Positions 1,876 through 18,604 of a DNA stretch of 64,000 nt are shown here, piece after piece. Each line of letters begins with the position of its first letter. Position 1 is the first letter of the stretch. The notes beneath the pieces are model-generated. The model worked only from the letters and a program-made list of their open reading frames with translations. It was not told where the DNA came from and searched no databases. The position numbers were made by a program, and so were the translations under genes. Source of the DNA: Nitrospirota bacterium (GTDB lineage Bacteria > Nitrospirota > Nitrospiria > SBBL01 > JAADHI01); contig JAJDBV010000005.1 of the NCBI GenBank assembly GCA_029261165.1, positions 17,707 through 81,706 of the forward strand. The letters run 5' to 3'.

Positions 1876-1975
1876 TTTGTTCAGAGCAAACCAGGGGAAA
1901 CCTTGGGACGCAGAGTGACGGAGCTAAAGGGGAAAAGGGTGAATGTCCTTTCCTTCATGCTTGCCGGGCCGCCAA
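1876..1975 (+). ncRNA. GEMM-I (c-di-GMP-I / cGAMP class) riboswitch aptamer
   Basis: Diagnostic core GCAAACC-AGGG-GAAA-CCTTGG-GACGCAGAG (1886-1915), P1b closed by a GAAA tetraloop, followed by a GCTAAAGG receptor-like segment and CCTTCATGCTTGCCGGGCCGCC. The base immediately before GCAAACC (1885) is A. Confidence 0.8.
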
Positions 1976-2004
1976 GGGGAAGCTCTTTGGCGGCTTTTTT
2001 TGTT
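1968..2004 (+). terminator. Intrinsic terminator / expression platform of the riboswitch
   Basis: GCCGCCAA...TTGGCGGC stem followed by TTTTTTTG; the 5' arm overlaps the 3' end of the aptamer. Confidence 0.8.
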
Positions 2005-2052: not shown

Positions 2053-4479
2053 ATGCAAAAAAAAATAAGATATTTCGTGATGAGATCTGGTGGTTTATTG
2101 ATCGTATTTTCGTCGTTCATCTTTTTGTCGTGTACAAATTCATCGAATTCAGATCCTGTTGCTCAGGACGATCTTCCCGGGATTGTCTTTGTAAAGCGTT
2201 CGGTCGATTCTCTGGGTGATCCTCTGGATCCTGTTGAATTTACCTCCGGGGGGGATCTCCATACCCTGGTTCCCGGAACCCCTTCAGGAAACCTTCAGAA
2301 TCTGACGACAGACCTCACCAATGGTGTTGGGGATGTTTCGGACCCTGAAGTCTTCCCGCAGACCGGTCAGGATTCATTCCGCCTTGTTTTTTCCTTGAAG
2401 CGCAACAGTACAGACAATTGGCACCTATATGAGGTGGTTGTCAATAAAGACGGAACCCGGGCCGCACCCCCGGAGCAACTCACCTGTGGGCTTTCCAACG
2501 AGGTGGAACCAGCCTATCTCCCGGATGGAAGGATCGTCTTCACCTCTGACCGACCAGGGCACCTTGATGAGTATGAACGGAGAAAATCCCATGTTCTTCA
2601 TATCCTGGACAGGAGTAAGGCAACCCTCCCGTCACAGCCCACTTGTGGCGATGCTGGCGAGATCGTTCAGATTTCCTTCAACCAGAGTCATGACCGAAAC
2701 CCTGTTGTCCTCAAGGATGGAACGATTCTCTTCAGCCGTTGGGAGCACCTTGGCCGAGTCAATAAGTTCACCCTTTTCTCAGTGGAGCCGGATGGAACGG
2801 ATCTTTTTGTCAAATATGGCTCACACTCGGGCGTCAATAGCTTTCTGAGTGCCCGTGAGTTATCCGATGGCCGATTGGTCTCCACGATGATGCCACTCAC
2901 GGGGACCTTTGAAGGGGGTGCCGTTGGTGTGCTCGACGTGGTCAATGAGGCCGACAATGCTCAGACAGCTTCACAGCAACTCACCAAACCACAGGTCATT
3001 CCCACGGGACGAACCCCCTCAGATTTCGGACGCTATTTCAGCACCTATCAGGTGCCGGATGGTTCGGATCGCTACTTGGTTTCCTATGCCACCGGGGCTG
3101 TCGTGCGTGACAGCATGATGAACCTCGTGGAAGAACCGTCCTATGGGCTCTGGATGCTCAATAATCGTGACGGAACCCTAAAGCCGATCAAGCTCCCGTC
3201 TGCGGGGACAAGAGAGGTCTACCTGGAGCCCATTCCGCTGATGGCGACCCCCGCAAATTTAATCCCCACGATGAAGACCCAGAAGACCGCGAACCGCAGC
3301 GCGATGGTACAGACGGGGGTCCTGGCGGCGGCCAGTGTCTACGACTCCGAGGCAAACCGGGCGCTCTCCGATGCCGTACTTGGGGTGACCATTCCGAGAG
3401 ATATTTCCGGGAACATCGACTTCAACGCACTGGTTGCGGATCCAGCGCTCCAAGTGGTCAAGGAGGTGCGGGTGATCGAAGCGGTTCCCAGCGATCCGGG
3501 CATTGGGAGAGAGGATATTGGCGCGACCCAGTTTGAACGGCAGAAAATCCTCGGCTATGCCCCCGTGGAGGCAGATGGTTCCTTCCGGATCACGGTTCCG
3601 GCAGATCGGGCGATTACATTGAATGTGGTCGATTCAAAAAGGCGTTCTTTCAAGGTGAAAGAAAACTGGCTGCAAGTGCGCCCTGGAGAGAACAAGACCT
3701 GTAATGGGTGCCACTCACCGAGGCGGGGAATGCCTCAACGTCTCGCAGCCGAGTCTATCGCGTTGAACAGAGCCGAATCGGCTCTGGCACCTCCGGCAAT
3801 TCCGGTTATTGACTACACGGACCATGTGCAGACGATCTTTACAGCCAAATGTGTTTCCTGCCACTCGGTTGCAAATATCAATGGGCCGGATGGCGGGCTG
3901 GAATTGGTTGGAGACCAGTCCGGCGCCGGATTCCCGCTTTCATATGATCAGCTTCTTGAGGGTTCAAACGGGTCCGACCTCGTGTCGCCGGGGGAATCCC
4001 GTCAAAGTCATCTCATCGAGCGGGTTTTTGGAGAGGAGTTAAGGGCCGGCGACACGCTTCCAGTCTCTGATCCTGCCAATCATGCGATGCTCCTTACAGA
4101 TCCGGAGAAGGAAATCCTGGTGGAATGGATCGACATGGGCGCCCAGTTTACCAACAAACAGGTCATTGCCAATACGGGGAGAAAGAATCTTGATCAGGTG
4201 GTTTTTCAAACGGCCATTCAAGCGATTCTTCAACAGCGCTGTGCGGGATGCCACGTCGCGGGGGGCGGGAGCAACTTTGTCTTGACCGGAAGCCTTGAGG
4301 GGGATCTGAATGCAACCGCATCCCGAACCAATGTCAGCGACCCGGCCAACAGCATCCTCCTTTTAAAGGCAATCGGAACGATTCCGATGCGCGTGAATGG
4401 GCTGCCGGTAACTCCTCCGTTGCTCTTGTCAGATCCGGATTACACGACGATTCTTAATTGGATCTCGGCAGCAAACTAG
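2053..4479 (+). CDS. HzsA-related multiheme c-type cytochrome lipoprotein with PD40-like N-terminal region
   Basis: Lipobox-like FLSC; TolB/PD40-like repeats (YLPDGRIVFTSDRPG); three CXXCH motifs (CNGCH, CVSCH, CAGCH). ATG at 2053 preferred over TTG at 2035. Confidence 0.75.
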   Translation: MQKKIRYFVMRSGGLLIVFSSFIFLSCTNSSNSDPVAQDDLPGIVFVKRSVDSLGDPLDPVEFTSGGDLHTLVPGTPSGNLQNLTTDLTNGVGDVSDPEVFPQTGQDSFRLVFSLKRNSTDNWHLYEVVVNKDGTRAAPPEQLTCGLSNEVEPAYLPDGRIVFTSDRPGHLDEYERRKSHVLHILDRSKATLPSQPTCGDAGEIVQISFNQSHDRNPVVLKDGTILFSRWEHLGRVNKFTLFSVEPDGTDLFVKYGSHSGVNSFLSARELSDGRLVSTMMPLTGTFEGGAVGVLDVVNEADNAQTASQQLTKPQVIPTGRTPSDFGRYFSTYQVPDGSDRYLVSYATGAVVRDSMMNLVEEPSYGLWMLNNRDGTLKPIKLPSAGTREVYLEPIPLMATPANLIPTMKTQKTANRSAMVQTGVLAAASVYDSEANRALSDAVLGVTIPRDISGNIDFNALVADPALQVVKEVRVIEAVPSDPGIGREDIGATQFERQKILGYAPVEADGSFRITVPADRAITLNVVDSKRRSFKVKENWLQVRPGENKTCNGCHSPRRGMPQRLAAESIALNRAESALAPPAIPVIDYTDHVQTIFTAKCVSCHSVANINGPDGGLELVGDQSGAGFPLSYDQLLEGSNGSDLVSPGESRQSHLIERVFGEELRAGDTLPVSDPANHAMLLTDPEKEILVEWIDMGAQFTNKQVIANTGRKNLDQVVFQTAIQAILQQRCAGCHVAGGGSNFVLTGSLEGDLNATASRTNVSDPANSILLLKAIGTIPMRVNGLPVTPPLLLSDPDYTTILNWISAAN

Positions 4480-5018
4480 TGAAAATGGGCTCGATTAAGG
4501 GGATCAACAATCAGGTGGTAAAAATGGTTCTCGGGATGAGAGGGGTCGCGATTTGTCCTTTTCCGGTGAGGAGGATTTGTGGCGGCCTCTTGGTGGGTTT
4601 TTTCCTTTTATTTAGTGGGGGATGCGGCCATGTTGAACCGGGAGAGGAAGGAGTCGCAGGAGGATTGGACCATACAACCTTCAAAAATACGATACAGCCG
4701 ATTCTGGACAACAGAGGCTGTTCTCAGAATGGGTGTCACTTTCGGGATAAAGTGAATCCCAATATCGGAGGACCGGGAGGAAGTTTTCGTCTCTTTATCT
4801 GCACAGGGAGCGATCCCTGCACACCTGGGGAGCTTCTGGCAAACCACGACTCCTCTGCGGGGATGAGCGATATCGTTAATCCGCCAAACAGCAAGCTTCT
4901 CACCAAGCCCCTGGCACTTCAGGGAGGCGGGGTGCAGCATTTGGGGGGAGAAATATTTTCAAGTACAACAGATCCGGATTATTTGACGGTGTTAAGTTGG
5001 ATACAGAGTCCGCTCTAG
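4458..5018 (+). CDS. Cytochrome c-like lipoprotein with CX4CH motif
   Basis: Lipobox-like GGCG; FKNTIQPILDNRGCSQNGCHFRD; C-terminal DPDYLTVLSWI shared with the upstream cytochrome. True start uncertain. Confidence 0.6.
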   Translation: MDLGSKLVKMGSIKGINNQVVKMVLGMRGVAICPFPVRRICGGLLVGFFLLFSGGCGHVEPGEEGVAGGLDHTTFKNTIQPILDNRGCSQNGCHFRDKVNPNIGGPGGSFRLFICTGSDPCTPGELLANHDSSAGMSDIVNPPNSKLLTKPLALQGGGVQHLGGEIFSSTTDPDYLTVLSWIQSPL

Positions 5019-5791
5019 GCTTATTGCCCCATAACGCAGGTTTCCGATCGGTATTTCTATTTCATTTGATAGGATTTCTGCTGATCGGGTTCCTGGCCTC
5101 GGCGACACCCGCATTCGGCGAGGAGGAAGTCGTTCAGGTTGTTGAACCCTTCCTGGAGATCCATACCGGGCCGGGGATGAGCTATCCGGTCTTCTACATT
5201 GGGGAGAAGGGGGAAGAGGTCCTTCTTCTGAAACGCCGAACAGATTGGTACAAGGTTCGCCTCCGTAATGGAAAAGAGGGTTGGGTCCATCGTCTCAAGA
5301 TCGATCTTACCCTTCGGGCCTCTGGGTTCCGGAAAGGCTGGGCCGAAAGGATCTATGACAAATATATTTCGAGGCGGCTCATGATGGGATGGGGAGGAGG
5401 AACCTTCGGTGGTGACCCCATTCTCACACTCAGAGCGACTTATTCCTTTACAGAGGTCCTGGCGTTGGAGGGAGGGGTCGGTTTGGCGACGGGTGATCTG
5501 GGAGGTACTGAACTCTATCAGGGTGGCCTGGTGTTCATCCCCTGGAGCGGCCCCTGGTTTTCTCTCCATGGAACAATTGGCGGAGGACGGGTTCAGGCCT
5601 CTCCCACCCCTCTTCTGATCAAAGCAACAAGTAAAGGTTTCTCGACCGCTTATGGCGGGATTGGTTTTTCCGCCCCGCTTTTTAGACGGCTGTTCTTACG
5701 CGGTGATTTTCGTAATTTTTCACTGTTTGTAAACCCCAAGCGCACCAGGGAGATTCAAGAATATACGCTGGGACTCTCTTTTGGATTTTAA
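4997..5791 (+). CDS. SH3-domain protein with C-terminal outer-membrane barrel-like region
   Basis: SH3b-like VEPFLEIHTGPGMSYPVFYIGEKGEEVLLLKRRTDWYKVRLRNGKEGWVH; C-terminal alternating beta pattern. Confidence 0.65.
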   Translation: MDTESALGLLPHNAGFRSVFLFHLIGFLLIGFLASATPAFGEEEVVQVVEPFLEIHTGPGMSYPVFYIGEKGEEVLLLKRRTDWYKVRLRNGKEGWVHRLKIDLTLRASGFRKGWAERIYDKYISRRLMMGWGGGTFGGDPILTLRATYSFTEVLALEGGVGLATGDLGGTELYQGGLVFIPWSGPWFSLHGTIGGGRVQASPTPLLIKATSKGFSTAYGGIGFSAPLFRRLFLRGDFRNFSLFVNPKRTREIQEYTLGLSFGF

Positions 5792-6476
5792 GGGAAAAGC
5801 ACTTATGTCTGGAAAAATATCAATTACACGACGGATCTCCAAGGCACTGGTCATTGGAATTATTTTCGGATTAATTTTTTCGCAAGGGGCGATTGCGGCC
5901 GCACAGAGTGGTGAATTTCTTCGGGGAGAAGACCCCTTGATCTCACCCCCAACAGAGGAGAGGGTTATCAAAGAAGCCGGAATCGATGCGGAATACATAG
6001 AGGTCAGCGCATTTTATGGATTGTACGCTCTGGATGGGTTTGCATCCTCGCCCGTCAGCGGTGCGAGGCTTGCCCTTCATTTAACAGAGGATATCTTTTT
6101 TGAAGGGAGCTACGGCATGACAGAGGCCGACCAGGAGGTCTTTGAGCGTTTGACCGCCCGGTTACTTCTTACCGATACAGAGATCATCTACTGGAATGTC
6201 AATGTGGCTTATAACCTCTTTCCCGGGCAGATTTTTCTAAGCCGTAAAAAGACGATTAATTCCACAATCTTTCTGATCGGGGGTTTGGGGCAAACGCAAG
6301 TCGATAACCGGGATCATTTCACAAGCAATTTTGGGATTGGATATCGGGCTTTTATCACAGACTGGCTTGATGCGCGGATCCAGTACACCGTCCATTCTTT
6401 TGAGACAGATCTGACCGGGGTGAAGGAGCGAATATACAACCTGGAGGGTACGGTTGGTCTTGCGATATTTTTCTAA
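5781..6476 (+). CDS. Outer membrane beta-barrel domain protein
   Basis: Signal peptide, barrel-like repeats, terminal hydrophobic/aromatic strand (GTVGLAIFF). Confidence 0.6.
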   Translation: MDFKGKALMSGKISITRRISKALVIGIIFGLIFSQGAIAAAQSGEFLRGEDPLISPPTEERVIKEAGIDAEYIEVSAFYGLYALDGFASSPVSGARLALHLTEDIFFEGSYGMTEADQEVFERLTARLLLTDTEIIYWNVNVAYNLFPGQIFLSRKKTINSTIFLIGGLGQTQVDNRDHFTSNFGIGYRAFITDWLDARIQYTVHSFETDLTGVKERIYNLEGTVGLAIFF

Positions 6477-6642: not shown

Positions 6643-7167
6643 ATGAGAAAGAACAGATTAAAAAGAGAGAGAAGGGTTTGGCTGGCCATTTTTTTGTTGA
6701 GCCTATCCCTTGCTGGGAACATAGATCATGCTGAAGGAGGAAGCAAGCCTCAGCATGCAGCAGACTTTACAGCAAAGAGCCTTTCCGGAGAGAACATTAA
6801 GCTGAGCGAGTTACGGGGGAAGGTGGTCCTCGTCAATTTTTGGGCAACCTGGTGTACCCCGTGCAAGAAGGAGCTTCCTTATTTTAACCGCCTGTATGCG
6901 AAGTATAAAAACGTGGGGCTCAAGGTCCTGGGTGTCAATCTCGACAAGGTCCGTTCCAAGGCCGTGAGGATGAGCAGTGCGATGGGTCTCTCCTTTCCGG
7001 TCCTGCTTGATCCGGCTGGAAGGGTCTCAGGTCTTTACAGGATCAGGAGCATGCCAACCACCTATGTCGTGGCCAAGGACGGGACGGTTCGTCATATCCA
7101 CTGGGGCTTTGGGCCGGATGAGCCAGCCCGGTATGAAGCAGAGATTCGAAATCTTCTTAAAGAGTAG
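6643..7167 (+). CDS. TlpA-family thiol-disulfide oxidoreductase
   Basis: VLVNFWATWCTPCKKELPYFNRLY active site; signal peptide. Confidence 0.9.
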   Translation: MRKNRLKRERRVWLAIFLLSLSLAGNIDHAEGGSKPQHAADFTAKSLSGENIKLSELRGKVVLVNFWATWCTPCKKELPYFNRLYAKYKNVGLKVLGVNLDKVRSKAVRMSSAMGLSFPVLLDPAGRVSGLYRIRSMPTTYVVAKDGTVRHIHWGFGPDEPARYEAEIRNLLKE

Positions 7168-7174
7168 CGTGTAA

Positions 7175-7405
7175 ATGAAGAATAGAAGCAGAATATTTGT
7201 CTTAATGATTACTTGTTTCATCGTCCTCGGAGGATTGACAGGATGTGCCGGCGTGAGGCCCTGGGAGCGTGAGATCATGGCCGATGAAACGATGAATTTT
7301 GACGCGGACCCTTTAGAGGAAGGCTGGCACCTTCATATCCAGGAGGTGAGGGAAGGAGCCCGGGGAGGGTACAGCGGGTCCGGGGGAGGATGTGGTTGTC
7401 GGTGA
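7175..7405 (+). CDS. DUF4266 small lipoprotein
   Basis: Lipobox LTGC, AGVRPWEREIMADETMNF, Gly/Cys tail GGYSGSGGGCGCR. Confidence 0.8.
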   Translation: MKNRSRIFVLMITCFIVLGGLTGCAGVRPWEREIMADETMNFDADPLEEGWHLHIQEVREGARGGYSGSGGGCGCR

Positions 7406-8532
7406 TGCGATCTCTTTTTGCAACTGGAGGCATACTCCTTGTCCTGGTCGTGACGATCGAGACCGCCACAGCCATAGAACCTGCAGATGAGACTGTTTCA
7501 GTTGGTTTTAATTTCTACGACGGCGGAGGGATTATGGTTCAGGGACCGGCCGTGATTGTCCGGAAGGATGTTCTTGACAAACTGTCGATAGAGGCTGGAG
7601 GTCGGGTGGATCTTGTGAGTTCGGCATCGATCGACGTGGTTACACAGGCCAGCCGCTATACAGAGAACCGTAAGGAATATTCAATCGGAACGAGCAGCAT
7701 CTTTGGGGACACGCTGATGACGACGGGTTATGCACGCAGTGATGAATCAGATTATATCTCTGACCTGCTCTCACTGAGTCTGGCCCATGACCTCATGGAC
7801 AAGAACCTGACCTTAACGATGAAGCTGGCCCGCTCCTGGGATCAGGTTGGAAGAAATGATGATCCCGCTTTTGGCTGGAAGGATTTCAACCGAACGATTT
7901 ACGCAGTTGGCGTTGCCCAATCCATGACAGCCCGATGGCTGGTGCAACTTAACTACGAGCTCACGGCCGACGAAGGCTTGATCAACAACCCATATCGGAG
8001 TGTCCTGACCCTTTCTGGAGGGACGGCGCCGGAGAACTACCCAGAGGCCAGAACGGGACATGCCTTTGTCGTGAGGACCGCTTATGGATTTCTCCCCGAT
8101 GATGCTGAAGGAGAAGGGGGGGGGAGGCGCTCGATCCAACTGGACTATAGATATTACCAGGATACCTTTGATATCCGATCTCACACCGGCAAGTTTTTAT
8201 ATCAGCACTATGTCTCTTCTGATTGGCTCCTGGGTTTCTCTTATCGGTACCATCGTCAGGGGGAGGCAAGCTTCTATGGAGACCGTCTCCCGACCACACA
8301 GATTTTTAAGGCGAGGGATAAAGAGCTTTCACGCTTTTCCGATCAGTGGATCGGCGGGTCGATCAAGTTCAAACCAGAGCAATGGCGATGGCGATCAATC
8401 GAAAATCCCTATTTTAAGCTGGGCTACAATTTCTTGATTTTTAATTACGATAATTTCACAGATCCCCGGACCGGGGGACTTTATTCGGTGAGGGCCAATG
8501 TACTACAAGCGAGTTTTGGTTTTAATTATTAG
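7390..8532 (+). CDS. DUF3570 outer-membrane-like protein
   Basis: Beta-barrel pattern; position between DUF4266 and ApbE; overlaps the DUF4266 ORF. Confidence 0.8.
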   Translation: MWLSVMRSLFATGGILLVLVVTIETATAIEPADETVSVGFNFYDGGGIMVQGPAVIVRKDVLDKLSIEAGGRVDLVSSASIDVVTQASRYTENRKEYSIGTSSIFGDTLMTTGYARSDESDYISDLLSLSLAHDLMDKNLTLTMKLARSWDQVGRNDDPAFGWKDFNRTIYAVGVAQSMTARWLVQLNYELTADEGLINNPYRSVLTLSGGTAPENYPEARTGHAFVVRTAYGFLPDDAEGEGGGRRSIQLDYRYYQDTFDIRSHTGKFLYQHYVSSDWLLGFSYRYHRQGEASFYGDRLPTTQIFKARDKELSRFSDQWIGGSIKFKPEQWRWRSIENPYFKLGYNFLIFNYDNFTDPRTGGLYSVRANVLQASFGFNY

Positions 8533-9532
8533 CCTGATGACCTTAGGGCTGATTGCGCATTTTCCAGAAGCGGCAGCTGAGACGAGAGAAGGACACCTGG
8601 TGACTGAAGAGCGGGCTCTGATGGGGACCCGGGTGTTGATCAAGGTCTTTGGCGATGATCGAAGTCGGATCGATCAGGCGATCCGTGCCGGGTTTGCCGA
8701 GGTGGTCCGATTAGAAAAACTCATGAGCAACTTTATCCCTGAGAGTGAGCTCTCCCGGATTAATCAAAACGCGGGCAGGGTCCCGGTCCCGGTCAGTCGG
8801 GAGCTTTTCAACTTGATCCGGAAGGCCATAGACTACTCCAAGTTGACCGATGGTGCTTTTGACCTCAGCTTTGCCTCGGTCGGAAAACTCTGGAACTTTC
8901 GAGCGGGGGTCGTTCCTTCTACCGAGGCGGTTAGAGAACGGCTTCATCTCGTGGATCACAAGAAGATTCGTTTAGACGAGAGTACATCCAGCATCTTCTT
9001 GACGCACAGCGGAATGGAAATCGGTCCAGGCGGAATCGGCAAGGGTTATGTTATGGATCGGACCATGGCCGTTCTGAAGAAACATGGCATCCATAACGCC
9101 ATGGTGATGGCCGGGGGAGACACTTTGATACGGGGTAAAAAGGGCAATGAGGCCTGGAAAGTCGGACTCCGAGACCCGAATAAGAAGAATGGCATCCTGG
9201 CGGTCCTGCCCTTGAAAGACGAGGCCATCTCGACTTCCGGGGACTATGAACGTTTTTTCATGAAAGACGGGGTCCGCTACCACCATATTCTGGATACAAA
9301 GACGGGTTTTCCGGCAAGGCTCTGCCGGAGCGTTACGATCCTGGCCCCGGATGCGACCACGAGTGACGCACTCTCCACCTCTGTTTTTGTCCTCGGTCCG
9401 GAGAAGGGGCTTGCGCTTATTAATCGCATAGACAGTGTTGATGCGATTATCGTCGGTCCTCAGGGCAAGATTCACCTCTCTTCCGGATTAACGGCCCTGG
9501 ACCTTAAATCGATAAATAAAAATGAGGAATAG
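8498..9532 (+). CDS. apbE: FAD:protein FMN transferase (ApbE family)
   Basis: ALMGTRVLIKVFG, GGIGKGYVMDR, STSGDYERFF, HHILDTKTGFPA motifs. Confidence 0.9.
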   Translation: MYYKRVLVLIISLMTLGLIAHFPEAAAETREGHLVTEERALMGTRVLIKVFGDDRSRIDQAIRAGFAEVVRLEKLMSNFIPESELSRINQNAGRVPVPVSRELFNLIRKAIDYSKLTDGAFDLSFASVGKLWNFRAGVVPSTEAVRERLHLVDHKKIRLDESTSSIFLTHSGMEIGPGGIGKGYVMDRTMAVLKKHGIHNAMVMAGGDTLIRGKKGNEAWKVGLRDPNKKNGILAVLPLKDEAISTSGDYERFFMKDGVRYHHILDTKTGFPARLCRSVTILAPDATTSDALSTSVFVLGPEKGLALINRIDSVDAIIVGPQGKIHLSSGLTALDLKSINKNEE

Positions 9533-9534
9533 TC

Positions 9535-10110
9535 ATGATCAATAAACTGATTGTTTGTTTTTTCACGCTTCTCCTTGTCGTTCCCACATGGGCCCAGGAA
9601 ACCCCGAAAGGTCGTCCGATGACGGCTTCGGAAACGGCTTCCGAGACAGTTCCCACTGACAGTCTCGAGAGCCTCGATCCAAAAATTCAAAGCTTGAAGG
9701 AAGAGATTCTGGCGCTCAACAGTCTTCTTTTCCGGTTGCAAGAGGATCTCCTTTTTCCGGAGGACTCTTCGCTTGTCGTCTTTCTCAGTGTCGAAGGGGG
9801 AAATTATTTCAATCTTGATTCGGTCAAGCTTCACCTGAACGATACCATGGTCTCGAGTTACCTTTACACACAACGGGAGGTCAGCGCACTTCGCAAGGGG
9901 GGTGTTCAGCGCCTCTATACAGGAAACATCAAGTCGGGTGCCCACCAATTGGTCGCGGTTTTCACGGGGACGGGCCCTCAAGAGAAAGACTACAAGCGGG
10001 CGGAGACAATTTCCATCGAGAAGAAAAAGGGTGCGCGGTTTATTAAGATCATTATCCGGGATGACGCGGATAAGAAGCAGCCTGAGTTTAAATATGAGAC
10101 GTGGGAGTAA
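9535..10110 (+). CDS. Secreted periplasmic protein of the TPR/TolQR cluster
   Basis: Signal peptide; start of a tightly packed co-directional gene run. Confidence 0.55.
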   Translation: MINKLIVCFFTLLLVVPTWAQETPKGRPMTASETASETVPTDSLESLDPKIQSLKEEILALNSLLFRLQEDLLFPEDSSLVVFLSVEGGNYFNLDSVKLHLNDTMVSSYLYTQREVSALRKGGVQRLYTGNIKSGAHQLVAVFTGTGPQEKDYKRAETISIEKKKGARFIKIIIRDDADKKQPEFKYETWE

Positions 10111-12028
10111 ATTGAACCGAAAGCCTGATCAGAAGATCCTGTTTTCATGGATGAAGGGTGTCGCCTTTTCCTTCATGTTGGTTCTTGTTCCGATCTGCTT
10201 GCATGCAGAGGGCGTGCTTTCAGAAGGAGATGCAGACCAGCAGAAATCATGGGAGGTCTTGAAAAGAGAGGCTTATTACCATTTCTTCCTCAAGGATTAT
10301 CTGACCGCGGCAACCCGTTTGAAGTTGATCGAGGCCTCGGGTGAGGCGGTGAATGACTTCAGGATCGTTAATGAAGTGAAGGTTCTTTTGGGCAGTCTTT
10401 ATCTGGCCTGGGGAATGGACCGATCTGCAATCCGTGTGTTCGGGGAATTGGACAAGCCGGGAGAGGAACGGAGTCAACTTCTCCTCAAGGTGGTCAAGGT
10501 GCAATACGAGCGTTCTCGTTATAAGGATGCCCTCGAGACATATAGATTATTTTTTCCAGAAGGGGGCGCAGCCCTGATTGAACAGCCCCGATATTTGGAT
10601 CAGGCGGAATACCTGGCCGGCTTGAACCATTATGCTGCAGGTTCAATTCGGGAAGGGGTCCAGAGGCTGAATAAAATTTCCCCGACCAGTCCGTATTTCC
10701 CCTATGCCCAACTGACACTGGCGAAATCCTATGTTCAGTTAAACGACTCTGCTCAATCGCTTCGCCTGCTCCGGACCTTGAGCGAAGTTGACACAGGCAG
10801 GAGTTCAGCACTGGTGACATTGACTGAGAAGAGTCGGCTTACATGGGGACAGCTTCTCATCGAAGAGAGAAATTTTGGAGAGGCACGGCGTGTCCTGGCA
10901 TTTATCCCCCAAGAGAGTCCCTTTTTCCCGGATTCCCTTTTCGGCATGGGCTGGACTCAGTTCAAGGAGGAAAAGCACCTGGAAGCGATACTCACCTTCC
11001 AGGATCTCATTAAGATCGCCCCGGATCATGACTATGCCCTAGAGGCCCTCACTGTCCTGGGTCATGGCTATAAAAAGTTGGGTGCTTTTCAAACAGCCAT
11101 CGACCATTACACTGAGGCCATTGAAATTTACGGTGAAAAGGTGTCAGAGATTCGTACATTTCAAAGGACGTTTGAGGACCCTGAGGCCTTCTCCCGTTTG
11201 TTAAGAGAATACGAGGATCAGAAAGGACCTCTGGTCGAATTTCTGAAGGACGATCGGATTCGATTCTGGGTAGGGCAATATGGTGACCTTATAAAGATGG
11301 AGTCTTATCTTCAAAAGAAATTACGCGACATGGGGGTTTTTGAAGTGCTGGTGGACCACCGGGAAGAGGTTTTCCGGAAATATCTTCCGAAGGTCCGCCG
11401 ATTCTTCAAGGAGACCCCCCTGAAGGGCTTGCGGAAAAAAGGAGAGGGCCTACGGAGAGATGTGAACCAGGCGGTCCAAAAGGAGGGCATCCTCTCTCTC
11501 GCCTCCGCCAACGAGGTTGAGACCTATGCCCTGTTATCCGAGGCGGTGTCACAGAGCCTTAGCCTGGGAGCGCAGATCGAGACTTTTGAAGGGGGGTCGG
11601 CCCCTGTTCTCGCGCAAAGAAAAGAATGGCATCGCGTTGATCGCTGGCTGAAGATCGCCCTGGGGGAGATGGTCTGGAAGATTACGACTGAGGTCCCGGG
11701 CAGGGCGGATGATCTTCGAAGGGATGTTCGGGTCGTCATGGCAGATCTTGAATTCATGGGGGAAAAACATGCCGGCCTGATCTCCTCTGTCCCCGCCTTG
11801 TCAGGGGAGATCGACGATTTCCGGCGTCGCATCAAGGCGGTCCGGGCCGAGCTGTTGGCACTGCGCGGCAAGGCCATCGCCTTGAGAGAGGCACTTCTTC
11901 CTCCACTTCAAGAGATCTTTCTTGGGGCATCGGAAAAGTGGATCAATCGGATTATGCGCCTGGTTGCTGTCGCGGAGTTGAGTCAGATACAGATTCTCGA
12001 TGGTCAAGACAGGAAGAGCGAACGATGA
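10094..12028 (+). CDS. Periplasmic TPR-repeat protein
   Basis: TPR-like helices (ALEALTVLGHGYKKLGAFQTAIDHYTEAIEIY). In-frame ATG at 10094 is a better start than 9902. Confidence 0.7.
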   Translation: MRRGSKLNRKPDQKILFSWMKGVAFSFMLVLVPICLHAEGVLSEGDADQQKSWEVLKREAYYHFFLKDYLTAATRLKLIEASGEAVNDFRIVNEVKVLLGSLYLAWGMDRSAIRVFGELDKPGEERSQLLLKVVKVQYERSRYKDALETYRLFFPEGGAALIEQPRYLDQAEYLAGLNHYAAGSIREGVQRLNKISPTSPYFPYAQLTLAKSYVQLNDSAQSLRLLRTLSEVDTGRSSALVTLTEKSRLTWGQLLIEERNFGEARRVLAFIPQESPFFPDSLFGMGWTQFKEEKHLEAILTFQDLIKIAPDHDYALEALTVLGHGYKKLGAFQTAIDHYTEAIEIYGEKVSEIRTFQRTFEDPEAFSRLLREYEDQKGPLVEFLKDDRIRFWVGQYGDLIKMESYLQKKLRDMGVFEVLVDHREEVFRKYLPKVRRFFKETPLKGLRKKGEGLRRDVNQAVQKEGILSLASANEVETYALLSEAVSQSLSLGAQIETFEGGSAPVLAQRKEWHRVDRWLKIALGEMVWKITTEVPGRADDLRRDVRVVMADLEFMGEKHAGLISSVPALSGEIDDFRRRIKAVRAELLALRGKAIALREALLPPLQEIFLGASEKWINRIMRLVAVAELSQIQILDGQDRKSER

Positions 12029-14850
12029 AAAGATTAGGCCTTCAAGGTGTCCACAGTATCCTCTTGGTCCTTCTACTCCAGGTGGGGTGCGTCGGACCGA
12101 AACCCTATCAGGTGACCGATGCGCGCATCCAGGGATTGGCTCGGGAGGTGTCTTTGCTCCGGTCTGAGCCCGTGGTCTCAAAAAAAGGCGAAGTGCTCAA
12201 AAAATACAAGGCCTTCTTATCAGAATACGGCCAGATGCCGTCCAGGCTGCGTGCACCTGCCCTGAAACGGCTCGGAGACCTTTACATGGCATCGGCCAAT
12301 GAGAAGTTTATTCGGGAGATGGAGGCCTATGAGGCACAACCTGAAGGCCCTCTTCCCCTGGTGGACTACCAAAGGGCGATCGAGACCTATAGCGTATTGC
12401 TTCGTTCCCATGATGAATATCCCGATAACGACAAAGCCCTCTATGCGCTTGCCAGGGCTTATGCGGAGAGTGGAGAAAGGGATTTGGCCCTTCCCCTGCT
12501 TGAACGGCTTATCAACCAATATCCGGCGAGCCCTCACAGATTGGAAACCTACTTCCGCTTGGGAGAGTATTACTTTGACCGGCATCGATACGAAAAAGCC
12601 GCAGAGGCCTACGCACAGACACTCTCCTGGAAAGACCCTTTTTTCCATGATAAGGCCCGGTACAAGCTGGGTTGGACCTTCTTTAAGATGAAGACCTATC
12701 CTGAAGCGATTGAACAGTTTCTTGCCCTGATTGAGAAGATGACGGCAACGCAGACCACTTTTTCTCCCGAAAACGGCACCCTGGTCTGGGAGGCCTTGAC
12801 CTATGTGACCAGCTCATTTCGAATCCTTGGGGGACCTTCAAAAGTGGCGGCCCATTTTAAGAAAAACGGTTCGCGAAGGTATGAAAAAGATCTCTACCTG
12901 ATGATGGGAAACCAGTACATGGCCGAAAAGCAGATCCAATCGGGAATCGAAACCTATGAAACCTTCATTCGGCAACATCCTCATGACGCGATCGCACCAA
13001 TTTTTTCTTCCTATGTCATCGAAGCCCATTTAAAGAGGGGGGAGGAGGAAAAAGCCCATCTTGCCCGGGTCCAACTGGTCAGGGATTACGCCTCTGGAGG
13101 GAGCTGGCACCGTGCCAATGACGTTGCGGCACGCCAGAGGGCGCGCCCTCTGGTGAAGTCGGAACTGCATGGCCTGGCCCTCTCGGCGCATGCCAGAGCC
13201 GAGAAAAAGAAGCAGAAGAAGCATTACCAGGAGGCTTCCACATGGTATCGGCAGTTTTTGCAGGCATTCCCAAAAGAGAAGGAATCTCCAGAGGTCCAAT
13301 TTTTATTAGGGGAAAGCCTGATGGCCCTGAAGCTATATGCCGATGCCGGGGCCGCCTTCATGACCTCTGCCTATGGTTATGCGGACAGAGGTCCGGAAAG
13401 AAAGGCGGCCTATGCCGCAGTGGTGGCTTATCAGAAAGTGAAGACGCTGAAGGGTGAGGCGCAGTTTGTCATCTTGTCGAAGCGATTTGCTGATAATTTT
13501 CCGACCGATCTTCAGACACCTCGGGTCTTGTTCAAGGCCTCTGAACTTCTCTTTGATCGGGAAAGATATCCCGGCGCAGCCGCAATCTTGGAGGAACTCC
13601 TGAGAGATTACCCAAAAGACAAGACGGCTTCAGCTTCTCGTAAACTGGTGGCCCATAGTTATATGAAAGGCAAGATGTTTGCGAAGGCGAGAAAGGCTTA
13701 CGGCCTTGCCGTCTCCTTTCTCCCCGCGACCGCTAAGAAGGAACGAAAAGAACTCTCCGACCTCCTGGTTGCGGCCATCTACAAAGAAGGAGAACGCCAG
13801 CGTGAAAATGGCCGTCCTGATCTGGCCGTCGTCCTTTTTCAGGATGTGTCCCGGGAGGGCCCGAAGAACGAACTGGCACCCGTGGCCCTCTTTGAGGCCG
13901 GATTGCTCTTCGAACTCTTGAAGCAGCCGGAAAAGGCGATTGAGACCTATCGCAAGCTGGTCCGGACCTATAAGCGCTCCCCGCTGGTGGGCAAGGCGAA
14001 TCTACAGGCCGGTCTTGCGTACGAATCTTTGGGCAAGGAACTCAAGGCGGCCGCGGCCTTTTCCGTGGCCGCCAGGCTGATCAAAGATAAAGAAGAGGTC
14101 CAGAACCTCCTTTGGACCGCTGCGCAACATTATGAAAAAGGAAGGAAATGGAACAAGAGCTATGCCACTTTCTCGCGCTTTATCAAACGGTTTCCAAAAC
14201 ATCGCGATGCCCCGGAAGCCCTTTTTAGAATGGCGCAGGCCCGGCAGAATACGGGAAAGCTCAAAGAGGCGAGAAAGCTATATAAGAGAATAATAAAGCA
14301 GGCACCCGGGACCCTGTTTGCCGCGCGGGCCCTCTTCCAGGAGGGGGAAGCGTCCTACAGGCGCTTCAAGGCCATCAAATTGAAAATTCCTTTGTCGAAG
14401 AGCCTTAAGAAGAAGACCCGAGCTTTTAAGGTGGTGATCAACCTCTATACGAAGGCAGTCGAGACGGGTGAACTTGAAGTCGTCACCGTCTCTGCCTATC
14501 GCCTGGGAGAGGTCTTCGAGCATTTCGCCGCTTCGTTGTTGAATGCCGAGCGCCCAAAAAATCTCAACGAAGAGCAGTTGGAGGAGTACATGTTTCAGTT
14601 GGAAGAGAAGGCCTATCCGTTTGAGGAAAAAGCCATCTCTGCCTATAAAAGCAATGTCCAACGTACGCAGCAGACCGCAGGTTTCTACAACGAATGGGTC
14701 AAGAAGAGCTACGATCGTCTTGCCGAGCTTCGTCCGGCCTTTTATCGAAGGGAAGAGCGTGCTGAACAGATCGTTTCCAATATCGATCCCAGGGTCTTCT
14801 CCAACAGAGCGGGGAAAGAGACGCTTGCGCGGGTAATGAAGGGTGACTGA
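12025..14850 (+). CDS. Large TPR-repeat lipoprotein
   Basis: Lipobox LQVGC; many TPRs (KALYALARAYAESGERDLALPLLERLINQYPASPH). ATGA overlap with the upstream gene. Confidence 0.75.
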   Translation: MKRLGLQGVHSILLVLLLQVGCVGPKPYQVTDARIQGLAREVSLLRSEPVVSKKGEVLKKYKAFLSEYGQMPSRLRAPALKRLGDLYMASANEKFIREMEAYEAQPEGPLPLVDYQRAIETYSVLLRSHDEYPDNDKALYALARAYAESGERDLALPLLERLINQYPASPHRLETYFRLGEYYFDRHRYEKAAEAYAQTLSWKDPFFHDKARYKLGWTFFKMKTYPEAIEQFLALIEKMTATQTTFSPENGTLVWEALTYVTSSFRILGGPSKVAAHFKKNGSRRYEKDLYLMMGNQYMAEKQIQSGIETYETFIRQHPHDAIAPIFSSYVIEAHLKRGEEEKAHLARVQLVRDYASGGSWHRANDVAARQRARPLVKSELHGLALSAHARAEKKKQKKHYQEASTWYRQFLQAFPKEKESPEVQFLLGESLMALKLYADAGAAFMTSAYGYADRGPERKAAYAAVVAYQKVKTLKGEAQFVILSKRFADNFPTDLQTPRVLFKASELLFDRERYPGAAAILEELLRDYPKDKTASASRKLVAHSYMKGKMFAKARKAYGLAVSFLPATAKKERKELSDLLVAAIYKEGERQRENGRPDLAVVLFQDVSREGPKNELAPVALFEAGLLFELLKQPEKAIETYRKLVRTYKRSPLVGKANLQAGLAYESLGKELKAAAAFSVAARLIKDKEEVQNLLWTAAQHYEKGRKWNKSYATFSRFIKRFPKHRDAPEALFRMAQARQNTGKLKEARKLYKRIIKQAPGTLFAARALFQEGEASYRRFKAIKLKIPLSKSLKKKTRAFKVVINLYTKAVETGELEVVTVSAYRLGEVFEHFAASLLNAERPKNLNEEQLEEYMFQLEEKAYPFEEKAISAYKSNVQRTQQTAGFYNEWVKKSYDRLAELRPAFYRREERAEQIVSNIDPRVFSNRAGKETLARVMKGD

Positions 14851-15524
14851 TGCAAATTTTTAGGCTGAAAGTCTGGGTGCCGATAGTTTTTTTTTTACTC
14901 CTTGGCTCAGGTTGTATCAAGGCGATCTCTCCACCGGTGGACCCTGTGATGTCTGTTCTTAAGGACCACGGGGCGATCACACCGGAACAGGAAGTGTTGG
15001 AGGAGAGCGAGGAGTCCGCACCAGATGCTGAGTTGGACGCAGTGTTGCTTCAATTCCAAAAAGGGATTCAGCTTCTTGAGGGCGGCAAGGCAAAGGAAGC
15101 CCGTTTGTTATTTGAAGCGCTTCGGGATCGTTATCCCGAAGTCAGTGTGATTCATAACAATCTGGGCGTCACTTACAAACGCTTAAACCTTCTGGATGAG
15201 GCAGCCGAGTCCTACCAAAAGGCAATTGATCTTCAAGGGGGAGGCTATACAGAAGCCCATTACAATCTTGCCATCGTCTTTCGAGAGCAGGGTGCCTTTC
15301 GGAAGGCCGAATCGGTTTACAAGGTGGTGATCGCCCTAAATCCCGAATTCCAGGATGCCCACTACAATTTGGCAGTTCTCTATGACCTTTATCTGGATGA
15401 GGCGGAAGAGGCGCTTCAGCATTATAGAAAATATATGGAACTTATTGATGGAAATCATCAGGAAATTGAACTATGGGTCGCGGCGCTTCAGAAACGTATC
15501 AATGTATCGGGAGGTAAAAAATGA
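14850..15524 (+). CDS. TPR-repeat lipoprotein
   Basis: Lipobox LLGSGC; VIHNNLGVTYKRLNLLDEAAESYQKAIDL. Confidence 0.75.
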   Translation: MQIFRLKVWVPIVFFLLLGSGCIKAISPPVDPVMSVLKDHGAITPEQEVLEESEESAPDAELDAVLLQFQKGIQLLEGGKAKEARLLFEALRDRYPEVSVIHNNLGVTYKRLNLLDEAAESYQKAIDLQGGGYTEAHYNLAIVFREQGAFRKAESVYKVVIALNPEFQDAHYNLAVLYDLYLDEAEEALQHYRKYMELIDGNHQEIELWVAALQKRINVSGGKK

Positions 15525-15859
15525 AGATGCTTACCCTGGGGACAATCGCTTCTATCTTATTTATATTCCTAACCGGGATTCATGGGTTTGCTGAGGAGGG
15601 AGAAAGGTCTAAAGGAGAAAACTTGGGCCAGGAGCGTGGCTTGGAGCGTCTGATGATGGGGGGCACGGAGATCCAGGGGACGGTAGAAAAACCGCATGTT
15701 GTTTATGTGGTCCCATGGAAAGAAGACACATCCCTGTCTCAACAGGAAATTTCATATGAACGAAGCTTTAGAGAGGAGATCCTAGAGCCGGTCGATCGCG
15801 ACCGTTTCCAACGTCAATGGGGGAATGGTCCCCGAACTTTGAAAGGAGGCCGTCGATGA
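15521..15859 (+). CDS. Small secreted protein of the TPR/TolQR cluster, unknown function
   Basis: Signal peptide; GGTEIQGTVEKPHVVYVVPWKED; overlaps both neighbours by a few bases. Confidence 0.55.
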   Translation: MKMLTLGTIASILFIFLTGIHGFAEEGERSKGENLGQERGLERLMMGGTEIQGTVEKPHVVYVVPWKEDTSLSQQEISYERSFREEILEPVDRDRFQRQWGNGPRTLKGGRR

Positions 15860-16617
15860 ATACGGTGGTGATTTTAATACAGTTTTATCGGGATGGTGGT
15901 GTTTTTATGTATCCTCTCGTCGGAATTTTGGCCATTTCTACCGCAATTGTTCTGGAGCGTTTTATCATTCTTATGCGGTCCGGAGTCAATGAACAGAAGC
16001 TATGGAATAAGATTTCTCCAGATCTCCGCTCATCGCGCCTGGATGAGGCGGCCCGCTCATGTTCCGCTTCCAGCAAGCCGCTGAGTCATGTCATCGCCGC
16101 AGGTATCGGGGGAATGAAGCATTCACTTTCCCGGGAAGGCATTCAGGGAACGATGGATGAGGCTGCCATGGAGGTGATGCCGAGATTGGAGGCCCGTCTC
16201 CATTATCTTCCCAATCTGGCCAATGTCGCAACGCTTCTCGGCCTCTTGGGGACCATTATCGGACTCATTCAGGCCTTTACCGCGGTTGCCGTGGCCGACC
16301 CTTCCCAGAAGGCCACACTACTTGCAAAGGGGATTTCCATGGCCATGAACACCACCGCCTTTGGCCTGGTTGTCGCCATTCCGATCATGCTGATATACAG
16401 CTTTCTTCAGGTGAAGACCAACCGGATTCTAGAAAGTCTGGATATTTACGCCTTAAAGCTTTTGAACCTCTCTTCCCAGTTGGGCACCAAAAAGGGTGTC
16501 CTCTCTGCGAATGGGGGAAGGCAGCGCCCGACGGCCCAGGGGTCAACCGGAGGGAAAAAAGCCGCCTGGAGCGCCGGTGATGCGCAGTTGGCCAAGGGGG
16601 GGAGTCATGCGAAGTAG
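15856..16617 (+). CDS. MotA/TolQ/ExbB proton channel family protein
   Basis: LATLLGLLGTIIGLIQAFTAVA and ISMAMNTTAFGLVVAIP motifs. Confidence 0.9.
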   Translation: MNTVVILIQFYRDGGVFMYPLVGILAISTAIVLERFIILMRSGVNEQKLWNKISPDLRSSRLDEAARSCSASSKPLSHVIAAGIGGMKHSLSREGIQGTMDEAAMEVMPRLEARLHYLPNLANVATLLGLLGTIIGLIQAFTAVAVADPSQKATLLAKGISMAMNTTAFGLVVAIPIMLIYSFLQVKTNRILESLDIYALKLLNLSSQLGTKKGVLSANGGRQRPTAQGSTGGKKAAWSAGDAQLAKGGSHAK

Positions 16618-17092
16618 GGAAGACCGCCGCGTCACCCGACGAAAAAACTCGGGAGACCTAACATTGAACATCACTCCTTTTCTAAATCTCATGGTGGTGT
16701 TGGTCCCGGTTCTTCTAAGCGGGGTGGTCTTCTCACGGGTGGCCATCCTGGAGATGAGTCTCCCTTCTGCACCGGGGAAAGAGGTACACGCGGAGGCGCC
16801 AAAAGAGACCTTTAAGCTGATCGTGACAATTCGTCAGGACGAATTGGTTGTCCGGGGTAGTGGTGTCGGAACCTCTCGCCTCCCCGGTAAGCATGGAAAA
16901 TACAACCTCAAAAAGCTGAGCGCACTCTTACAGCAGGTCAAAGGCAAGTATCCAAAAGAGAAGTCAGTGATCCTGCTCAGTGAGCCTGAGATCCCCTATG
17001 AATCTCTGATCGCGGTCATGGACATCTGTCGAGAAAACCAGAGGGATCTGCTCTTTCCGGAGATCTCAATCGGGGAGGTGAAATCGACATGA
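16607..17092 (+). CDS. ExbD/TolR family protein
   Basis: LTLNITPFLNLMVVLVPVLL single TM; position after TolQ/ExbB. Confidence 0.8.
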   Translation: MRSREDRRVTRRKNSGDLTLNITPFLNLMVVLVPVLLSGVVFSRVAILEMSLPSAPGKEVHAEAPKETFKLIVTIRQDELVVRGSGVGTSRLPGKHGKYNLKKLSALLQQVKGKYPKEKSVILLSEPEIPYESLIAVMDICRENQRDLLFPEISIGEVKST

Positions 17093-17589
17093 ATCGAATG
17101 AGATGTTTACAGAAGAGGCAGAGGCGAAGCCCTGCTGTTCAGCTTTCACTCACCAGTCTGATGGATATCTTCACCATTCTCCTCCTCTTTTTATTGATGC
17201 AAATGGGAGACGAAGGGATGGCCCTTCCGACTTCAGAACAGATGAATCTTCCCGCCTCCACCTCGCGGGAGAATCCCGCTCCCACGGTCATCATCATGGT
17301 CACGGAGAAGGAGATCCTTCTTGAAGGAAAGCCGATCATGAGTATAAAAGAAGCGATCAATATGGAGGGTTCCATTCTCCATCCGGTAAAGGAGGCGCTG
17401 ACCCGGCTGGCCGAGCAAACCAAGTATCTTGCCAGTCAGAATGCTTCGGTAAAATTTACGGGAAAAATCACGGTGATGGGGGATCGAAAGATTCCCTTCC
17501 GGCTTCTGAAAAAAGTGATGAATACCTGCGCACAAGCGGAATTTCCGAACATCGCCCTGGCGGTGACGAAGAAAGAGGAAATGGGTTAA
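17089..17589 (+). CDS. ExbD/TolR family protein (second copy)
   Basis: VQLSLTSLMDIFTILLLFLLMQM single TM; TolR-like C-terminus. Confidence 0.8.
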   Translation: MNRMRCLQKRQRRSPAVQLSLTSLMDIFTILLLFLLMQMGDEGMALPTSEQMNLPASTSRENPAPTVIIMVTEKEILLEGKPIMSIKEAINMEGSILHPVKEALTRLAEQTKYLASQNASVKFTGKITVMGDRKIPFRLLKKVMNTCAQAEFPNIALAVTKKEEMG

Positions 17590-17599
17590 GGAGGCAAGT

Positions 17600-18604
17600 A
17601 TGTCTTATCTTGAGCGCCAAGAAGAAGTCCTCTTCCGGAAGATGCTCCGGTATTCCCTGGGATTCTATCTTGTGTTGAGTCTCGTCATTGCTGTGGTTAA
17701 ACTTCCGATGCCTAAACCGACGGATATTCGGGATCTTCCCAAGCGGGTGGCCAAGTTGATCATGGAGCCGCCGAAAGTGACGCCCGCGCCGCCGGTTCCA
17801 AAGAAGATCAAGCCGAAGCCGGTGGTCAAGCCCAAGGGTTTAGGGAAGAAAAAACCGAAGGGAAGCCCCAAGCTTAAGATTTCAAAGAGAAAAACCGTTA
17901 AGAAAAAAGTGCCCCCGCCGACCTCCGTACAGCGGAACCGGGAGATTGTCAAAAAGAGCGGACTCCTTGCCTCTCTGGTTGGCGCAGAGATCGCGGGAAA
18001 CCTGGACAGCATCATGGATGATAAGCGGCTGGACAAAGCCCTCTCCCAGCCCAATGTTATTTCAGCCCCTGTCCGAAAAGGAAGCCGTCGGCCGGCCATG
18101 AGCAAAAGCGGCTCCACAAACACAAAACTTGCGGATAAGAAGATCGCGAAATTCGGAACACTGAAGAAGAAGGATCGTGTCCAGCTTGCAAAACGGGAAA
18201 AAGTCACTGTCACCCATCTTGGTGGGACCGGGGGGGAAAGTGGTTCTGGAGGGCCGGGCCACGGACTTGGCGGCGGGGTGGGTGTTCGACTCAGTGGGGG
18301 TGGTTCGGGAACCGCTGTCATAGACTATGACGCCATTGCCCGTGTGGTTGAAAAATACAAGGGAGGCCTTGTCTACCTCTATAACAAGGAGCTTCGGTCG
18401 AACCCGATTCTGAAGGGGACAGTGACCGTAGAGTTTTCCATTGACGACAACGGAAAGGTCGTTGAGGCACGCGTGGTCAACAGCAGCATGGACCATGCAC
18501 GCTTGGAAAAGGCGCTTGCCAGGCGGATCAAGCGGTGGAAATTCCCCAAACTCTTTGACGGGATCATCGTTGTGACCTACCCGTTTGTATTCTTCCCGGT
18601 GTAG
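17600..18604 (+). CDS. TonB-like energy transducer with AgmX/PglI-type C-terminal domain
   Basis: N-terminal TM, Pro/Lys-rich linker, C-terminal AIARVVEKYKGGLVYLYNKELRSNPILKGTVTVEFSIDDNGKVVEARVVNSSM. Confidence 0.8.
   Translation: MSYLERQEEVLFRKMLRYSLGFYLVLSLVIAVVKLPMPKPTDIRDLPKRVAKLIMEPPKVTPAPPVPKKIKPKPVVKPKGLGKKKPKGSPKLKISKRKTVKKKVPPPTSVQRNREIVKKSGLLASLVGAEIAGNLDSIMDDKRLDKALSQPNVISAPVRKGSRRPAMSKSGSTNTKLADKKIAKFGTLKKKDRVQLAKREKVTVTHLGGTGGESGSGGPGHGLGGGVGVRLSGGGSGTAVIDYDAIARVVEKYKGGLVYLYNKELRSNPILKGTVTVEFSIDDNGKVVEARVVNSSMDHARLEKALARRIKRWKFPKLFDGIIVVTYPFVFFPV

Follow-up and report, generated by a model that had tools for sequence, protein, structure and literature searches.

The window, the whole 64,000-nucleotide stretch of Nitrospirota DNA analyzed here, carries at 9535-18604 nine plus-strand genes, designated A to I, all of them present and each set off from the next by a short gap or overlap (A/B, -17 nt; B/C, -4; C/D, -1; D/E, -4; E/F, -4; F/G, -11; G/H, -4; H/I, +10). 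Open reading frame, Pfam, and NCBIfam evidence agrees with the first-pass annotation on the composition of these mostly overlapping genes, and the coordinates it gave for the nine are accurate. The unit is longer than it proposed, however, with eight redox and outer-membrane genes lying directly upstream, starting at about 2053. All gaps in the stretch from the TlpA gene to I are 10 nt or less, and a gap of 166 nt precedes TlpA, after two cytochromes and two outer-membrane proteins. The likely start positions of B, C, F, and G are 10094, 12025, 15856, and 16607. The features are, in order:

1966..1996, plus strand: terminator-like hairpin just upstream of the 17-gene unit (14-pair stem, T tail; a consensus match only)
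2053..4479, plus strand: HzsA-like cytochrome lipoprotein (PD40 repeats; HZS_alpha middle domain PF18582, 64.7 bits; three CxxCH haem motifs)
4458..5018, plus strand: small cytochrome-like lipoprotein, start uncertain (one C-x4-CH motif)
4997..5791, plus strand: SH3 domain plus outer-membrane beta-barrel (SH3_3, 37.9 bits; TIGR04565 weak, below cut-off)
5781..6476, plus strand: outer-membrane beta-barrel of the OMP_myx_plus family (TIGR04565, 114 bits; cut-off, 60)
6643..7167, plus strand: TlpA/ResA-like thioredoxin (AhpC-TSA, 107.9 bits)
7175..7405, plus strand: DUF4266 lipoprotein with a CxC end (PF14086, 68 bits; CGC end kept in orthologs)
7390..8532, plus strand: DUF3570 probable outer-membrane barrel (PF12094, 90 bits)
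8498..9532, plus strand: ApbE, FAD:protein FMN transferase (PF02424, 285 bits)
9535..10110, plus strand: A, secreted; one helix, then an Ig/transthyretin-like beta-sandwich in the AlphaFold2 model
10094..12028, plus strand: B, secreted TPR protein, GltC-like in position and architecture (TPR matches)
12025..14850, plus strand: C, long TPR lipoprotein, GltD-like in position and architecture (TPR_6, 110 bits; YbgF-like repeats)
14850..15524, plus strand: D, TPR lipoprotein, GltE-like (TPRs)
15521..15859, plus strand: E, small secreted protein (motif EIxGxxEKPxxxYxVPWK, from alignment)
15856..16617, plus strand: F, AglR/TolQ-like channel subunit (MotA_ExbB PF01618, 98 bits; cut-off, 22.9)
16607..17092, plus strand: G, ExbD/TolR-like, transmembrane Asp replaced by Asn (PF02472, 51 bits; cut-off, 25.4)
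17089..17589, plus strand: H, ExbD/TolR-like, transmembrane Asp retained (PF02472, 48 bits; cut-off, 25.4)
17600..18604, plus strand: I, TonB/GltG-like transducer (TonB_C, 33.6 bits, cut-off 24.6; NF033768, 89.9 bits, cut-off 40)

Protein I combines one transmembrane helix, a Lys/Pro- and Gly-rich linker, and an AgmX/PglI C-terminal domain (NCBIfam NF033768). Comparison with solved structures related F to TolQ and, by a weak match, I to TonB2; in the alignment, the island I proteins do not have the transmembrane His of TonB and TolA. A lipobox is present in D and is atypical in the C protein of the window (LLLQVGC), although good in most C orthologs. Neither A nor E matched a family in Pfam or NCBIfam. 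The E motif is a form common to E proteins across core complexes, and the model of A (AlphaFold2; mean pLDDT, 75) comprises a signal peptide, a helix, and a beta-sandwich. Foldseek searches with that model returned adhesin and transthyretin-like sandwiches below significance (best E value, 9e-3), and against solved structures there were coiled-coil hits only and no credible match.

These parts correspond to the core complex of the Agl/Glt machinery of Myxococcus xanthus, which consists of GltC, GltD, GltE, GltG, and AglR, Q, and S, is encoded in one region with one extra gene in Geobacter and non-deltaproteobacteria, and was described in 2011 as a conserved complex of unknown function ancestral to the gliding and spore-coat machines (PMC3169522). 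As in that complex, a single cluster holds one TolQ-like and two TolR-like genes, a GltG-like TonB protein with a transmembrane helix and a TonB/AgmX tail, TPR proteins at the positions that GltC, GltD, and GltE would occupy, and extra genes; the class of F, the AglR-type channel, is set by a tree without AglR. In that tree, the core-complex F proteins (31 rows) form one clade separate from the genome's own and Escherichia coli TolQ/ExbB (99/89), within which the island F sequences are a single group (92/100). The extra gene of the core complex that is absent from Myxococcales could be A or E. Unlike the complexes in the 2011 report, which came from Delta-, Gamma-, and Betaproteobacteria and Fibrobacteres (PMC3169522), the cluster described here is from Nitrospirota, has A and E as secreted extras, is fused to a redox island, and usually has a G protein without the proton-site Asp. 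It is very probable that A-I is a machine of the core-complex type, here found across Nitrospirota, and the proton-motive-force-driven envelope machine that the first-pass annotation proposed is supported. The claim is one of membership in a class and not of orthology part by part, as TPR matches alone cannot assign B, C, and D. The Glt equivalog models all scored below their cut-offs (GltC, 24.5 of 450 bits, with B; GltE, 35.9 of 225, with D; GltG, 83 of 650; GltJ, 29.5 of 450), no GltF-, GltH-, GltI-, or GltK-like gene was recognized at the locus, and a complete Agl-Glt gliding machine, which would include the Group A genes (GltA, B, F, and H-K), was rejected as an assignment, with no other Glt model listed there.

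Other motor systems share parts of this layout. The vWA force transducers also pair TPR proteins with one TolQ-like gene, two heterologous TolR-like genes, and a tethered transducer, but that transducer carries a vWA domain (PMC12204202) where I has a TonB-like AgmX/PglI tail. Assignment to Tol-Pal was rejected (TolQ, 76 of 221 bits; TolR, 25 of 127 bits; no TolB or Pal in the cluster), as was assignment to a TonB-ExbB-ExbD importer (ExbB, 50 of 206 bits; ExbD, 28.9 of 123 bits; no receptor domain in the island).

The full block reads cytochrome (HzsA-like)-cytochrome-SH3/barrel-barrel-TlpA-DUF4266-DUF3570-ApbE-A-B-C-D-E-F-G-H-I. Nine genomes of families f1, f10, and f11 (G000, G002, G004, G005, G007, G022, G023, G027, and G028) keep its gene order and strand at about 37 to 72% protein identity, and the A-I order is kept in three further genera at about 19 to 43% identity. 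Such conservation across diverged genomes argues that the cluster is not due to chance, and the linkage to a cytochrome island that the first-pass annotation suspected holds in all nine, which carry both parts as one block; synteny in relatives, to which it had also looked, is present. Its further suggestion that surface contact is coupled to electron transfer would be speculative, the observed result being linkage that is conserved. The block is split over two contigs in G004 and G005, and the G007 contig stops short of the cytochromes. No second cytochrome was recognized in G022, G023, or G027, and a few small or diverged genes were uncalled in single genomes. A search of 58 genomes found close I homologs (53 to 62% identity) in nine besides the window's own (2.9 Mb, 89 contigs) and none in any genome of the large family f6. 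A contig scan that used an alignment and narrow peptide patterns gave matches only in Nitrospirota; the island is shared by records named as Manganitrophaceae, Nitrospira sp., and Nitrospirota/Nitrospiria metagenome-assembled genomes. Searches of plasmids gave zero matches to A or I. In G019 (contig C109, L046), a partial, broken I remnant with stop codons has the look of a decaying island.

The eight upstream genes are rich in surface and redox proteins. Lipoboxes occur in most orthologs of the cytochromes, DUF4266, C, and D (six of eight for the HzsA-like cytochrome and four of five for the small one, whose CSQNGCH motif has equivalents in orthologs). An outer-membrane location is predicted for DUF3570 and both barrels; the structural model of DUF3570 is strand rich, and its low confidence (pLDDT, 52.5) makes it too weak for use. 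The related small barrels at 4997-5791 and 5781-6476 may recall GltA and GltB, a paralogous pair in M. xanthus. On the hydrazine synthase alpha equivalog, the HzsA-like protein reaches 100 bits, far under the cut-off of 800, and is therefore not to be named that enzyme. Strong HZS_alpha matches (E value, 1e-17 or better) were confined to these islands and one 3.2-kb contig.

Together, the ApbE, DUF3570, CxC-ended DUF4266, and thioredoxin-like genes of the island resemble the DsbD/DUF3570/DUF4266/thioredoxin/ApbE clusters of the flavinylation literature, in which DUF3570 of Chlorobium luteolum is a proven ApbE substrate via two [S/T]GA[S/T] motifs (PMC8238504). The island differs from those clusters in being without DsbD and in its DUF3570 motifs: [ST]GA[ST] is absent from the window protein and its eight orthologs, which have SSAS and TQAS (TQGS in one), and is present in 9 of 17 other Nitrospirota DUF3570 proteins examined. 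Flavinylation of the island DUF3570 is thus doubtful, and the retention of ApbE alongside the variant motifs suggests that the enzyme either accepts the variant or modifies something else. The DUF3570 proteins of L151, L152, L153, L157, and L160, with no ApbE in view, also have altered motifs in which G is replaced (TSAT, SSAT, TSAS), as in the island. The main text of the flavinylation study mentions neither TolQ nor TPR proteins (PMC8238504), and none of the papers searched joins TolQ/TPR genes to DUF3570, ApbE, or HzsA.

The identity of the machine is well supported, and what it does can be proposed from its parts and neighbors. By homology, F and the G/H pair would form an inner-membrane proton channel that acts on I through its one transmembrane helix, the long linker of I taking the TonB-like tail through the periplasm. 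A scaffold in the periplasm and outer membrane would be supplied by the secreted protein B and the lipoproteins C and D, together with A and E; its partner would be the complex of cytochromes, DUF3570, and barrels, in or on the outer membrane, encoded by the same gene block. The motor would then most likely power the assembly, positioning, or lateral movement of a surface redox complex. We favor this model, in which proton flow powers the placement or movement of a redox complex at the surface and not propulsion of the cell, with a probability of roughly 0.5, and the chances that the machine acts on the adjoining redox proteins at all are about even. Domain content, gene overlaps, the conserved 17-gene order, the F clade, and the lipoboxes and barrels support it. 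A lineage in which the core complex is locked to defined surface redox proteins provides a concrete cargo candidate and extends the range of the complex to Nitrospirota. The stronger proposal, that the dedicated task of an Agl/Glt-type machine is to build or move an electron-transfer complex of the outer membrane, which would be the first redox cargo of the motor class, is tentative and rather doubtful; if true, it would give an orphan core complex a function.

The two halves of the block also occur apart. Clusters of A-I in the same order without adjoining redox genes are found in G104, G108, and G386; core complexes without A are frequent (e.g., L163, L165, L166, L177, and L179-L181), as are DUF3570/DUF4266/TlpA clusters without a core complex (L145-L161). 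Because each module is found alone and both are joined in the block, the island appears to be a stable fusion of two modules. Of 396 Nitrospirota genomes, 13 have A, 28 have DUF4266, and 9 have both, but kinship makes these counts non-independent, so that adjacency is the stronger point. Two independent modules could merely share transcription, the core complex having a different surface cargo, much as the spore coat polymer is handled by Nfs, and the common separation of the modules, which is consistent with linkage by co-regulation only, counts against the model that we favor. The sub-cut-off scores of the Glt equivalog models and the doubtful flavinylation of the island DUF3570 weigh against it as well. 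The independent-module reading is further supported by the pair formed by a giant protein and a 1,723-aa OmpA/barrel protein that precedes the nine genes in G386, with a similar pair, bearing DUF11 and SdrD_B repeats, preceding A in G126. Such linkage again involves surface proteins and was for that reason counted in favor of a surface partner. We consider independent modules unlikely, given that one block with short overlaps is kept over three families and that in no sampled genome was a strong HZS_alpha gene found beside DUF3570 without core-complex genes. Such a giant repeat protein and an OmpA/barrel protein of about 1,700 aa lie directly upstream of A in other Nitrospirota families (L077, 11716-19900; L080, 880-12314, with DUF11/SdrD_B).

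A TonB-like energizer that opens or loads DUF3570 or the small barrels so that a metal, polymer, or lipoprotein substrate crosses the outer membrane would account for the TonB_C/AgmX tail of I, for barrels within the same gene block, and for the iron transporters near some DUF3570 clusters (PMC8238504). It is nonetheless improbable: no island protein has a TonB-dependent receptor domain, which also rules out the ordinary TonB import that the first-pass annotation had weighed against its own reading; simple TonB systems do not include three TPR proteins; and I is without the His noted above. Gliding, in which the motor would drive Glt-like proteins along the envelope and propel the cell, has in its favor a motor and transducer composition the same as that of AglRQS/GltG and two small upstream barrels reminiscent of GltA/GltB, but this part of the first-pass annotation is very unlikely to be right, given the sub-cut-off GltC, GltE, GltG, and GltJ scores, the lack of recognized GltF/H/I/K-like genes in the locus, the judgment of Luciano et al. 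in 2011 that motility by the core complex alone is unlikely (PMC3169522), and fixed partner genes that are redox genes.

Whatever is moved, the motor genes provide examples from nature of motor sharing and of a channel with perhaps a single proton site. In G022 and G027 (98 to 99% complete), the island runs D-(E)-I, without F, G, or H; in each genome, the sole close relative of F (52 to 53% identity) belongs to another, paralogous cluster that has B-I genes of its own, and every other channel protein is only 25 to 29% identical to F. We infer that these islands use a motor in trans from the paralogous cluster. In M. xanthus, experiments demonstrated an AglR-GltG interaction and one motor serving both Glt and Nfs (PMC3858216). 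Nfs is a paralogous complex without motor genes of its own, the motor being encoded elsewhere, and the f10 islands are laid out alike; here, by contrast, gene content is the basis for proposing that a motor is shared, and a redox island takes the place of the polysaccharide as partner. The transmembrane helix of I is closer to that of the paralogous cluster in the motor-less islands (identity, 0.29 to 0.31) than in seven motor-bearing islands (0.08 to 0.27), a likeness that is only suggestive, as both genomes belong to a single genus. Further motor-less clusters are present in G001, G058, G067, G075, and contig C26 of the window's own genome, and these would likewise draw on a motor in trans. 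Overall, core complexes that lack channel genes of their own recur over several families (L044, 15266-17237; L045, 15703-17824; L056, 2303-7606; L167, L168, L171, and L174).

Of 32 complexes surveyed (35 rows, from which three conventional ExbD rows belonging to the window's own genome were set aside), 28 have Asn in G at the transmembrane Asp site of TolR/ExbD, and all 32 have Asp there in H. In M. xanthus, proton conductance is lost in the AglQ D28N mutant (PMC3858216), so that G carries what amounts to a naturally occurring version of this change, and the channel may, on this residue pattern, work with one proton site. In the G386 cluster (L077), the channel gene F is present in two copies, at 273-1037 and 3641-4300.
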